NCBI RefSeq assembly: GCF_030378205.1
Contig: NZ_CP127385.1
Coordinates: forward strand, 4,814,001-4,878,000
Source of the DNA: Bradyrhizobium sp. NP1
Lineage (GTDB): Bacteria > Pseudomonadota > Alphaproteobacteria > Rhizobiales > Xanthobacteraceae
Direction: 5' to 3'
Length of the DNA stretch: 64,000 bases
The notes below the pieces were generated by a model. The model did not search any database, was not told where the DNA came from, and saw only the letters and a list, made by a program, of their open reading frames with translations. A program made the translations under genes and the position numbers. Of this stretch, positions 48,701 through 52,069 are shown in pieces. Numbering within the stretch: the stretch's first letter is position 1; each line of letters starts with the position of its first letter.

Positions 48701-49399
48701 TTACGAACTTCGGAAAGCGGGCGCTGCCCCGTTCAGCCGAAAGTCGGCCAAAATGGTCTCGCCGGCGATCGCGGTCTGGCCCTCGGCCACCAGCGGCCGC
48801 GTGCCCTCGGGCAGGTAGACGTCGAGCCGCGAGCCGAAGCGGATCAGGCCGAAGCGCTCGCCGGCGCCGATGGTCTGGCCTTCCTTGACAAAGGAGACGA
48901 TGCGGCGCGCCACGAGGCCGGCGATCTGCACCACCCCGATCCGCCCGTTCGGCGTCGAGATCACGAGCGAGTTGCGCTCATTGTCCTCGCTCGCCTTGTC
49001 GAGCTCGGCATTGATGAAGATGCCGGGCCGGTAGGCGATGCGGTCGATCCGCCCCGCTACCGGGCTGCGGTTCACGTGACAGTTGAACACGCTCATGAAG
49101 ATCGAGACGCGCGGCAGCGGCCGGTCACCGAGCCCAAGCTCGGCCGGCGGCAGGACAGTCGTGATCATGGAGATGCGGCCGTCAGCCGGTGCGACCACGA
49201 TGCCGTCGCGTACCGGCGTGACCCGCACGGGATCGCGGAAGAACAGCGCGCACCAGATCGTCAGCACGGTGCCGATCCAGCCCAAGGGCGTCCACAGCCA
49301 GAACAGGACTAGGCTTGCGAGCGCAAAGCCGCCGATGAACGGATAGCCTTCGGGATGGATCGGCGGAATCTGCCGCTGGATGGAATTGGCGATGGACAT
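48701..49399 (-). CDS. psd: Phosphatidylserine decarboxylase, small (type II) form
   Basis: The 232-residue proenzyme is shorter than enteric Psd (about 320), as expected for the archaeal/alphaproteobacterial type. [19 protein letters not shown] carries the catalytic His, and the self-cleavage site is Gly-Ser in [12 protein letters not shown], where Ser becomes the pyruvoyl group. One N-terminal membrane region. Together with pssA it is the PE pathway; 191 bases without a gene separate the two. Confidence 0.92.
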
Positions 49400-49435
49400 G
49401 AAGACTACTGCTCTCTTCCCACTTTGCTACTCTCT

Positions 49436-49494
49436 CCCCTCTCCCCTTGTGGGAGAGGGTGGCACGCCGCGAAGGCGGCGTGCCGGGAGAGGGG
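49436..49494. repeat. Palindromic repeat, left copy of the DUF559 cassette
   Basis: Two hairpins lie in series: CCCTCTCCCC-TTGT-GGGAGAGGG, then GGCACGCCGC-GAAG-GCGGCGTGCC, closed by GGGAGAGGGG. It directly follows the TGA of the DUF559 gene on the minus strand. It is the inverted counterpart of the repeat at 49829-49882. Confidence 0.85.
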
Positions 49495-49828
49495 TCAGGA
49501 CGGATTCCCAAGCGCGGCCGCAATGGTATCGAGGACGCCGCCGGTGCTTTTCAGCACCTCATTATTCCAGAACCGCAGTACCCGGAACCCCTCATCTTCA
49601 AGCCATCGGGTCCGGACCGGGTCCGTTTTTACTCTCGGCATGTTGGCTGCCATCGACCTCGATAATGAGACGCCGCTCGAAACAAACAAAATCAACAACG
49701 TAGCTGCCGATCGTCGCCTGCCGCTTGAATTTGCTTCCCTTGAATCGGTGGGCGCGAAGGAAATACCACAGCCGCCGTTCGGCGTCCGTCATGTTGCGGC
49801 GGAGGACCTTGGCCTGCGCGGTCGTCAT
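49495..49828 (-). pseudogene. DUF559 (very-short-patch-repair-like) endonuclease gene with a frameshift
   Basis: Read from 49828 the first frame gives MTTAQAKVLRRNMTDAERRL, WYFLRAHRFKGSKFKRQ and FERRLIIEVDGSQHAES, the DUF559 fold with its nuclease Glu, Asp and Gln. It then runs out of frame into a stop. The other frame continues KTDPVRTRWLEDEGFRVLRF and WNNEVLKSTGGVLDTI to the TGA at 49495, the normal C-terminus. Removing one A from the AAAAA run at 49626-49630 would restore an intact protein of about 110 residues. Sequencing error or real mutation cannot be told apart. Its ribosome site, GAGAGGGG, is part of the right-hand repeat. Confidence 0.82.
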
Positions 49829-49882
49829 CCCCTCTCCCGTCTCGACTTCGTCGAGCCACCCTCTCCCACAGGGGGAGAGGGG
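49829..49882. repeat. Palindromic repeat, right copy of the DUF559 cassette
   Basis: CCCCTCTCCC, a small hairpin CTCGAC-TTC-GTCGAG, then CCCTCTCCC-ACA-GGGGGAGAGGG. Its reverse complement aligns with the left copy over the first 28 bases (CCCCTCTCCC...GGGAGAGGGTGGC) and the last ten (GGGAGAGGGG), differing only in the inner stem. It abuts the ATG of the DUF559 gene. Confidence 0.85.
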
Positions 49883-49927
49883 ATTTTCTTCGTGCTGCTG
49901 GAATCAAGCCGTTCCGAGCAGCGTCGA

Positions 49928-51874
49928 TCACTCCGCGGCCGTTGCGATCGGATCGTCGACCTCGGGCGGGGCGCGGTTCGGCGCCTCGTTGTCGTCGTCG
50001 ATCTGGGCAAGCCGCTCGCGCGCGGCCTCCGCCTCGCGCTGGCGGTTCCACATGCTGGCATAGAGCCCGCCCTTCGCCAGCAGCTGCGCATGGGTGCCGC
50101 GCTCGGCGATGCGGCCCTGGTCGAGCACGATGATCTCGTCGGCGGCGACGATGGTGGAAAGCCGGTGCGCGATCACCAGCGAGGTGCGGTTGCGCGAAAC
50201 GCGCTCCAGCGCTTCCTGGATTTCGTGCTCGGTATGGCTGTCGAGCGCAGACGTCGCCTCGTCCAGCACCAGGATCGGCGGCGCCTTCAGCACGGTGCGG
50301 GCGATCGCGACGCGCTGCTTCTCGCCGCCCGACAGCTTCAGGCCGCGCTCGCCGACCTGTGTCTCGTAGCCCATCGGCGCCATCCGGATGAAGGTATCGA
50401 TCTGCGCCAGCCGCGCCGCTTCCTCCACCTCGGCATCGCTCGCGTCCCAGCGGCCATAGCGGATGTTGTAGCGGATGGTGTCGTTGAACAGCACGGTGTC
50501 CTGCGGCACCATGCCGATCTGCGCCCGCAGCGAGTCCTGCGTGACCTCGCGGATATCCTTCCCGTCGATCAGGATGCGGCCGCCGGAGACGTCGTAGAGG
50601 CGGAACAGGAGGCGCGAAATCGTCGACTTGCCGGCGCCGGACGGGCCGACAATCGCGACCGTCTTGCCGGCCGGCACGTCGAAGCTGAGACCTTTCAGGA
50701 TCGGCCGCTCCTCCTCGTAGGAAAAGCGCACGTCCTCGAAGCGCACATGGCCTGAGGTAACGACCAGCGGCTCGGCGCCGGGAATATCCTTGATCTCGGC
50801 CTCGCGCCCAAGCACGCCGAACATCTTCTCGATATCGATGACCGCCTGCTTGATCTCGCGATAGACCATGCCCATGAAGTTCAGGGGCTGATAGAGCTGG
50901 ATCATCATGGCGTTGATCAGGACGAAATCGCCGACCGTGTTGTGGCCGGAGCGCACGCCGATCGCGCACATGATCATGGTGACGGTGAGGCCCGCGGTGA
51001 AGATCACCGCCTGCCCGGTGTTGAGCACCGCGAGCGAGGTGTAGGTCTTCACGCTCGCCTGCTCGTAGCGTTCCACCGAACGGTCGTAGCGCTGCGCCTC
51101 GCGCGTCTCGGCGCCGAAATATTTCACGGTCTCGTAGTTCAGCAGCGAGTCGATCGCCTTGGTGTTCGCCTCGGTGTCGGAGTCGTTCATCTTGCGGCGG
51201 ATGCCGATCCGCCACTCGGTCGCGATGTAGGTGTAGTACATGTAGATCACGACGGTGATCATCGTCGCCAGCACATAACGCCAGTCGAACTGCCAGAGCA
51301 GCACGGCCATCAGCAGCGATACCTCGACGATGGTCGGGATCAGCTGCAGGATCACCATGCGCACGATGACCTCGATGCCGGTGCGGCCGCGCTCCAGGAT
51401 GCGCGTCAGCCCGCCGGTCTTGCGCTCCAGGTGGAAGCGCAGCGACAATTCGTGCATGTGGACGAAGGTGATGTAGGCGAGCTTGCGCACCGCATGCATG
51501 GCGACGCGCGCGAAAATGCCGTCGCGCCATTGCGTCAGCACCGCCATCAGCACGCGCATCGTGCCATAGCTCGCGGTCAGCAGCAGCGGCGAGGCGACGA
51601 TCCAGAACGCCCAGTTCGACGCCTCGACCGGCGCGGAGCCGTGTCCGGTCAGCGCGTCGGTCGCCCATTTGAAGGTGAAGGGCACCGCAAGGGTGGTGAG
51701 CTTGGCGAGGAGCAGCAGCACGACCGACCAGACCACGCGCATCTTCAGGTCGACGCGGTCGCCGGGCCAGATATAGGGCCACAGATGCGCGAGCGTCCCG
51801 ATCAGGGTCGCGCGTTCGATCGCGGGGATGGGTCCCGGCGCTTGTCTGCCGTGGAACGAATCAGGATGAGCCAT
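49928..51874 (-). CDS. ABC exporter, fused membrane and ATPase domains (Atm1/HMT1-type)
   Basis: The 648-residue half-transporter has six membrane helices (about 45-330) followed by an ATPase: Walker A GPSGAGKST, signature LSGGEKQRVAIAR, Walker B ILVLDEATSALD. NYETVKYFGAETREAQRYD and the MNDSDTEANTKAIDSLLNYE stretch are hallmarks of the Atm1 branch, which exports glutathione-linked sulfur or metal conjugates. It would act as a homodimer in the inner membrane. The ATG at 51874 is used rather than a TTG just before it. The C-terminal tail is acidic and not conserved. Confidence 0.92.
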   Translation of the reverse strand: MAHPDSFHGRQAPGPIPAIERATLIGTLAHLWPYIWPGDRVDLKMRVVWSVVLLLLAKLTTLAVPFTFKWATDALTGHGSAPVEASNWAFWIVASPLLLTASYGTMRVLMAVLTQWRDGIFARVAMHAVRKLAYITFVHMHELSLRFHLERKTGGLTRILERGRTGIEVIVRMVILQLIPTIVEVSLLMAVLLWQFDWRYVLATMITVVIYMYYTYIATEWRIGIRRKMNDSDTEANTKAIDSLLNYETVKYFGAETREAQRYDRSVERYEQASVKTYTSLAVLNTGQAVIFTAGLTVTMIMCAIGVRSGHNTVGDFVLINAMMIQLYQPLNFMGMVYREIKQAVIDIEKMFGVLGREAEIKDIPGAEPLVVTSGHVRFEDVRFSYEEERPILKGLSFDVPAGKTVAIVGPSGAGKSTISRLLFRLYDVSGGRILIDGKDIREVTQDSLRAQIGMVPQDTVLFNDTIRYNIRYGRWDASDAEVEEAARLAQIDTFIRMAPMGYETQVGERGLKLSGGEKQRVAIARTVLKAPPILVLDEATSALDSHTEHEIQEALERVSRNRTSLVIAHRLSTIVAADEIIVLDQGRIAERGTHAQLLAKGGLYASMWNRQREAEAARERLAQIDDDNEAPNRAPPEVDDPIATAAE

Positions 51875-52069
51875 CAAATCGAAGCCTGGCGGGGAGCGGG
51901 AACGCGCCGCCTTTGTCTGTATTCACCCCGTCATATAGAGTGTTTATTTGCCCCGCGCACCCCGACAGATGGGTGATTCTTTCGCCATGTCCGGATATTT
52001 GCGGATAGATTTCCAAGGGCTACGAATCAGCGGCTTGACGCCCTTACCTTGCGGTGCCACATGCTGAAG

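Follow-up and report, generated by a model that had tools for sequence, protein, structure and literature searches.

A small nuclease gene of the DUF559 family, framed by inverted palindromic units, occupies 447 bp of the 64,000-nucleotide stretch of Bradyrhizobium sp. NP1 DNA analysed here (the window), and the same pairing of gene and units recurs around related genes in many bacterial groups. This pattern suggests DUF559 as the partner enzyme that a widespread class of palindromic 'junk' repeats has so far lacked. The association of gene and repeats is close to certain. It is observed as framing, a preferred polarity of the units, spread over phyla, co-occurrence at the genome level, inner stems that vary yet are often palindromic, and a spacer that in different genomes is filled, holds a single hairpin or is empty. 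It is likely that the DUF559 enzyme acts on the flanking units, and we propose that the units spread by homing-like repair. We give even chances to the reading that the 447-bp unit is a degenerate representative of a REP/RAYT-like class in which a homing-type nuclease takes the place of the transposase and would drive the spread. To our knowledge, no enzyme class other than RAYT has been established as a partner of REP-like palindromes. Among the literature matches listed, mostly titles and the openings of abstracts, none reports a link between DUF559 and repeats.

The cassette lies between an Atm1-type exporter gene (49928..51877, minus strand, ending at 49928) and psd (48701..49399, minus strand, starting at 49399), upstream and downstream neighbours outside the cassette whose names are those of an earlier note on this DNA; the note placed it correctly, on the same strand as both. 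Its central claim, that the DUF559 gene (49495..49828, minus strand) is exactly framed, also holds: the left (49436-49494) and right (49829-49882) units are inverted, with 35-nt arms that are 91% complementary, the ATG (49828) directly follows the GGGAGAGGGG of the right unit, and the TGA (49495-49497) abuts the left unit. Read inwards, each unit consists of a pyrimidine block, a 5-nt loop, a complementary purine block, an inner stem-loop and a second purine block, GGGAGAGGGG, at the gene. In the left unit (plus strand), the outer hairpin, CCCTCTCCC-CTTGT-GGGAGAGGG after one C, spans 49436..49459 and is followed by a variable inner stem-loop of 10 bp (49460..49484; fold and shuffle test) and the second purine block (49485..49494), which adjoins the DUF559 stop codon. 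In the right unit (minus strand), the outer hairpin is at 49859..49882, the variable inner stem-loop at 49839..49858 (fold and shuffle test) and the second purine block at 49829..49838, where it probably serves as the ribosome-binding sequence, a role assigned from the sequence. The repeat-supplied ribosome-binding site of the earlier note fits the window locus; at several other loci the start codon seems, by eye, to lie further in. The two units were said to share their first 28 and last 10 bases; the last 10 (GGGAGAGGGG) are indeed equal, whereas the outer agreement is 27 of 28, with the loop reading CTTGT on the left and CCTGT on the right. The inner stems differ in their letters and are nevertheless palindromic in both units, as described. 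Folded as single-stranded DNA, the left unit adopts the structure as drawn (-26.2 kcal/mol, z -6.8). For the right unit, the top-ranked fold is a different one, with the second purine block paired to the outer pyrimidine block (z -3.4, equalled by 2 of 200 shuffles). CCCTCTCCC occurs seven times in the window, six of them within the cassette (0.63 expected), and, with up to two mismatches allowed, the hairpin matches 11 sites of the 7.7-Mb genome (19 strand hits), two of these sites being in the window cassette; a backward control pattern gave no match in the same genome under the same tolerance. Rfam has no match in 49300-50000 at E up to 1.

The earlier note had made its reading depend on such flanks recurring at DUF559 genes elsewhere, and they do. 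We scored hairpins with an 8-nt pyrimidine arm and a complementary purine arm, at most one mismatch and a loop of 2-9 nt, within 450 bp of the domain; at least five C were demanded for the NP1 genome, the phylum loci and polarity, at least four for the genus and many-phyla sets, and the controls were run under both settings. Hairpins stand on both sides of 60 of the 74 DUF559 domains analysed in the window genus, on a single side of 11 and on neither side of 3, and the 60 two-sided cassettes span 435-592 bp. Five of the six DUF559 loci of the NP1 genome are two-sided, the sixth, which encodes a long protein (L006), having no hairpins. The best phylum loci (n = 30) comprise 16 two-sided and 14 one-sided cases and none without hairpins, and the lower-scoring ones (n = 19) comprise 10, 7 and 2, respectively. 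Across many phyla, a search with an alignment (A1) of six domains from already collected loci yielded 580 confirmed relatives, of which the best 80 include 54 two-sided, 20 one-sided and 6 unframed genes (53, 21 and 6 under the stricter rule). These 80 come from Mollicutes, Bacteroidetes, Brocadia, Nitrospirota, a cyanobacterium, candidate-phylum bacteria, Chloroflexi groups, Clostridia and Proteobacteria, among others; their repeat letters vary by genome (CCCTCTCCC, TCCCCCTTT, CCTTCCCC and others), and the purine/pyrimidine design is constant. Around the same 80 genes, 191 hairpins fall within 69,772 bp near the genes versus 45 in 291,806 bp further away. Random stretches of 20 of these genomes contain 17-18 hairpins per 400,000 bp, and 107-113 of 4000 random pseudo-loci have any hairpin and 0 of 4000 are two-sided (ranges over the two settings). 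Under both settings, such hairpins are absent from 30 GIY-YIG genes and from 28 psd relatives, a control that omits the NP1 copy (L008) and one locus at a contig end (L032).

The genus and phylum loci were taken from the top of the score lists, usually one per genome; 18 phylum loci of lower score together with L098, and 40 further genus loci, were chosen by score and coordinates and not by their repeats. L099 was left out of the counts as a duplicate of L098, and the genus set leaves out both the long protein L006 and the broken window copy. The reading frame extends beyond the start of the 3' hairpin in 35 of the 60 two-sided genus cassettes, so that DUF559 proteins, as annotated, may end in translated repeat sequence. 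At three loci (L068, L075 and L083), arrays of many hairpins adjoin the DUF559 gene.

The units are also oriented. Among the 131 nearest hairpins of the genus, the second purine block lies on the gene side in 124 and on the outer side in 19. The linker between the two purine blocks is shorter than 12 nt in 70 of 133 units (e.g. T, TTA, TTG or TCGG); in the window units it measures 25 and 20 nt and carries the stem-loop. Of 33 distinct, parsable long inner segments, 18 have a stem longer than those of their shuffled versions (p<0.05), and the other 15 do not. One short-linker arrangement of the unit is the published TM_ECO pattern, CCCTCNCCC-N3-6-GGGNGAGGG-N3-GGGNGAGGG, whose 3610 copies in 262 proteobacterial genomes have been assigned no function and show no functional correlation with their neighbour genes (PMC4666352); a word search of the main text of that paper finds neither 'DUF559' nor 'endonuclease'. 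The window units do not follow the 9-9-9 layout of TM_ECO with its 3-nt second linker. The DUF559 gene of E. coli K-12, ycjD (L067, 2030-2860), has a degenerate hairpin at its stop codon, a full TM_ECO copy (fit by eye) about 170 bp downstream of the stop, before fabI, and a different long palindrome directly upstream. In other E. coli, according to an excerpt of PMC12817139, the eefRABCD operon replaces ycjD.

These data bear on the view that DUF559 proteins are ordinary host enzymes of Vsr-like repair or of defence, around whose gene a separate REP-like family has gathered, either because the adjacent spacers tolerate insertions or because the units act as terminators or ribosome-binding sites. 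For the Caulobacter DUF559 protein VsrA, the excerpted report proposes a role in mismatch repair and describes genetics tying it to a solitary methyltransferase (PMC12907096), in line with host service, as is the residence of the genus cassettes at few sites (11 groups, see below). However, a gathering of this kind would have to produce inverted framing, a preferred polarity and a span of 435-592 bp in 60 cassettes, and to do so across phyla with different repeat letters, while sparing psd and GIY-YIG genes; furthermore, PADLOC run on three relatives returned only weak DpdF matches, to two of them. We therefore regard a pure host function as unlikely, although it is the strongest of the alternatives.

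The window gene itself is broken by a frameshift at about 49628-49635. Its open pieces cover 49598-49828 and 49495-49698, and PF04480 matches it in two parts that overlap but are read in different frames (92 and 39.6 bits, against a cut-off of 20.6); the match to NCBIfam PRK09767, the YcjD equivalog, is below its cut-off. With its reading frame lost, the window copy is probably inactive. The frameshift may not be unique to the window assembly, because a protein 99% identical to that of the window, and equally short, heads a cluster of three sequences, one of which may be the window copy. The nearest full-length relatives have 105-126 aa and are 79-83% identical across the first ~67 residues. 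Relatives carry precomputed PF04480 and mostly also PF18741 matches, and several are labelled very-short-patch-repair endonuclease by the source database; identity of the window protein to the other DUF559 domains of the genus is about 60%. One relative of 110 aa (P0008), modelled from 32 sequences (pLDDT 84), is predicted to have the Vsr-like catalytic fold. The structures nearest to the model are NGO0050 (3hrl; 45% identity, TM 0.75) and then the homing endonuclease I-Bth0305I (3r3p; Foldseek E 8.1e-4, TM 0.70), and weaker fold matches are to Toxoplasma mitochondrial-ribosome proteins, modification-dependent restriction enzymes and Vsr. Sequence profiles likewise match 3hrl (E 1.5e-38) and 3r3p (E 9.6e-4), other profile matches (E 0.2-0.94) being to unrelated chains and without meaning. 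Excerpts of earlier work show YcjD among the predicted PD-(D/E)XK nucleases, with a profile able to detect Vsr (PMC1189080), and place a DUF559 gene in the EDxHD homing family (PMC9403480).

The nature of the enzyme matters for a second view, in which the protein processes folded single-stranded hairpins as RAYT does and the units spread by strand transfer, with no homing repair. RAYT genes, as the excerpted source describes them, are always flanked by two inverted REPs, and their orthologs keep their place while the palindromes drift and palindromicity is kept (PMC2817692), traits that resemble those of DUF559. However, the window pieces belong to PF04480 and not to the Y1 HUH transposases (PF01797), and the fold predicted for the relative P0008 is like that of I-Bth0305I and, weakly, Vsr. 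Both of these are hydrolytic nucleases and not HUH enzymes, and form no covalent DNA intermediate. Spread by strand transfer is, in our estimate, unlikely, and somewhat less probable than a host function.

Repeats and DUF559 co-vary between genomes, as the reading of the earlier note also demanded. A strong DUF559 match (E up to 1e-12) is present in 80 of 299 genomes of the phylum, and at least two perfect CCCTCTCCC hairpins are found in 52 of these 80 versus 15 of the 219 others (odds ratio 25, Fisher p 2.7e-24 over the 299 genomes, uncorrected for kinship). Fewer than two perfect hairpins occur in 28 of the 80, several of which belong to genus g9, whose fetched DUF559 loci bear other arms, e.g. 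TCTCCCCCCTTGCGGGGGAGA. Repeats can also occur without the gene, since 12 of the 219 genomes that lack a strong DUF559 match hold at least five perfect hairpins. In the NP1 genome, inspection by eye reveals three inverted pairs of units with no gene between them (L339, L340 and L342), the latter two with extra sequence inside, as well as single hairpins (L338, L341 and L343). The pair at ~360-530 of L342 (C1:6230.9 kb) lies inside an apparent UvrD-type helicase gene, judging its flanks by eye. Gene-less pairs, and genomes with many hairpins and no strong DUF559 match, would fit a gene that is a mere passenger, with an unrelated transposase mobilising the miniature inverted-repeat ends in trans, but chance cargo would hardly be one and the same gene family in many phyla with differing repeat letters, and we hold this reading to be unlikely and the least probable of all.

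How long the cassettes stay in place, and how they arrive, can be read in part from the sites that they occupy. By their outer flanks, the 60 two-sided genus cassettes fall into only 11 site groups, which points either to long residence or to preferred sites. In the largest group, of 15 cassettes, the proteins belong to two lineages that share 46-54% identity, and each lineage carries a separate repeat class (11 and 4 cassettes). This spacer has therefore been occupied on more than one occasion, and protein and repeat went together. Across 11 site representatives, pairwise similarity of proteins and of units correlates modestly (Spearman 0.33; 18 of 2000 permutations are as high). The window protein, on the other hand, does not group with the dnaN-recF proteins of the same repeat class, and repeat class is therefore not strictly tied to protein clade; an origin of the window cassette from the dnaN-recF lineage was ruled out on the same ground, the proteins not being close.

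The hppD-hmgA spacer, compared in 30 genomes of the family of G271, which we take to be a xanthomonad family, is found in several states. It is filled with a DUF559 cassette in 10 genomes (one cassette is internally deleted, and the left end of another is unseen), holds a single hairpin at about the filled position in three (L256, L258 and L264), holds neither gene in 12 (among them L263, with a hairpin of another kind) and is unreadable in one. In the remaining four (L243, L252, L254 and L265), it is occupied by a GIY-YIG gene that lies between palindromes of another kind, TTCGCCCTGAGCGTAG-type repeats (by eye), and occupancy by DUF559 or GIY-YIG differs even within genus g173. By eye, the right flank of the single hairpin of L256 resembles the right outer flank of the filled sites. 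A single hairpin in this spacer fits either an insertion target or the scar of recombination between cassette ends.

With regard to mobility, the analogy to RAYT/REP drawn by the earlier note is borne out by framing elsewhere and by genome co-occurrence but not by signs of movement, given the missing target duplications, the 11 site groups and the frameshift. At psd, where the earlier note proposed a test for empty sites, none of 29 loci of relatives has a DUF559 domain (L032 covers just 305 bp upstream), and the psd-Atm1 spacers of L012 and L013 contain weak hairpins, seen by eye, that fall under the detection rule. Neither a target duplication nor a strain-level insertion was found, the hppD-hmgA and psd spacers being too diverged for exact borders. 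Recent transposition as the source of two like DUF559 copies in genome G011 was ruled out, the copies lying within a 9.8-kb identical segment that is present twice. This dnaN-DUF559-recF segment (L098 and L099) measures at least 9.8 kb, and its two identical copies are inverted on one contig, G011:C16, which may reflect a duplication or an assembly artefact. In the dnaN-recF spacer, no clean empty site was found in the 10 of 20 genomes that could be placed, plus L098; these contain, mostly by eye, DUF559 in four cases, GIY-YIG in two, an internally deleted GIY-YIG in one and neither in four.

Some GIY-YIG genes are framed in a similar way, by other palindromes. In the dnaN-recF spacer of the NP1 genome (L218, 3176-3540, on C1), a confirmed GIY-YIG nuclease gene lies between inverted palindromes (CGTCATTGCCGGGCTTGACCCGGCAATCC), as it does in L229, and L219 has an internally deleted copy of this cassette. 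Inverted repeats above the random 99th percentile surround 9 of the 30 top GIY-YIG loci, with several different palindromes, and 16 of 30 DUF559 loci. At ~3163-3176 of L218, the GIY-YIG cassette abuts CCCCTCTCCCCT, which resembles one half of a hairpin of the DUF559 type, as though either cassette had inserted into the repeat of the other.

Collectively, we propose the following scheme. A small free-standing nuclease of the Vsr/EDxHD type, a YcjD-like DUF559 protein, is carried between two inverted palindromic units, like units also existing alone or in gene-less inverted pairs. The nuclease would recognise and cut its cognate hairpin, in the form of a cruciform, a single-stranded hairpin or a triplex, preferring the solo copy, and repair templated by the cassette-bearing locus would copy in either the unit alone or the entire cassette, as a homing-like counterpart of the action of RAYT on REPs. 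Because the palindromic ends are also direct repeats, recombination between them could remove the gene and leave a solo hairpin. More broadly, homing-type nucleases (DUF559 and, separately, GIY-YIG) instead of transposases might be the autonomous partners of several abundant palindromic repeat families across Bacteria, a generalization to which we give slightly less than even chances. If true, much extragenic hairpin 'junk', E. coli TM_ECO included, would be the footprint of nuclease-driven repeat homing. A widespread and little-studied nuclease family framed by repeats gives TM_ECO-type repeats a testable origin, and the framing predicts substrates for YcjD-like proteins.

Among known systems, REP/RAYT resembles the window class in having one gene between two inverted palindromic repeats that also occur elsewhere, as far as the excerpted sources describe it (PMC2817692, PMC8266576), but its enzyme is a Y1 HUH transposase, whereas DUF559 cassettes encode a Vsr-like nuclease. 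The units differ as well: those of DUF559 combine a purine/pyrimidine hairpin with an additional block of purines and are found across many phyla. NGO0050 (3hrl) and E. coli YcjD are members of the DUF559 family, and the excerpt of PMC1189080 does not mention a repeat context for YcjD. The EDxHD homing endonuclease I-Bth0305I is like P0008 in fold, in profile match and in being encoded by a free-standing gene. The known EDxHD homing enzymes, however, possess an extra DNA-binding region (PMC3943268, in excerpt), and the 110-aa single-domain model of P0008 shows no such extension; palindrome framing goes unmentioned for this family in the excerpts of PMC9403480 and PMC3943268. Finally, the intrastrand triplex motif (PIT) of TM_ECO corresponds to the short-linker form of the DUF559 unit: where TM_ECO has an N3 linker, the window units have 20-25 nt with a stem-loop.
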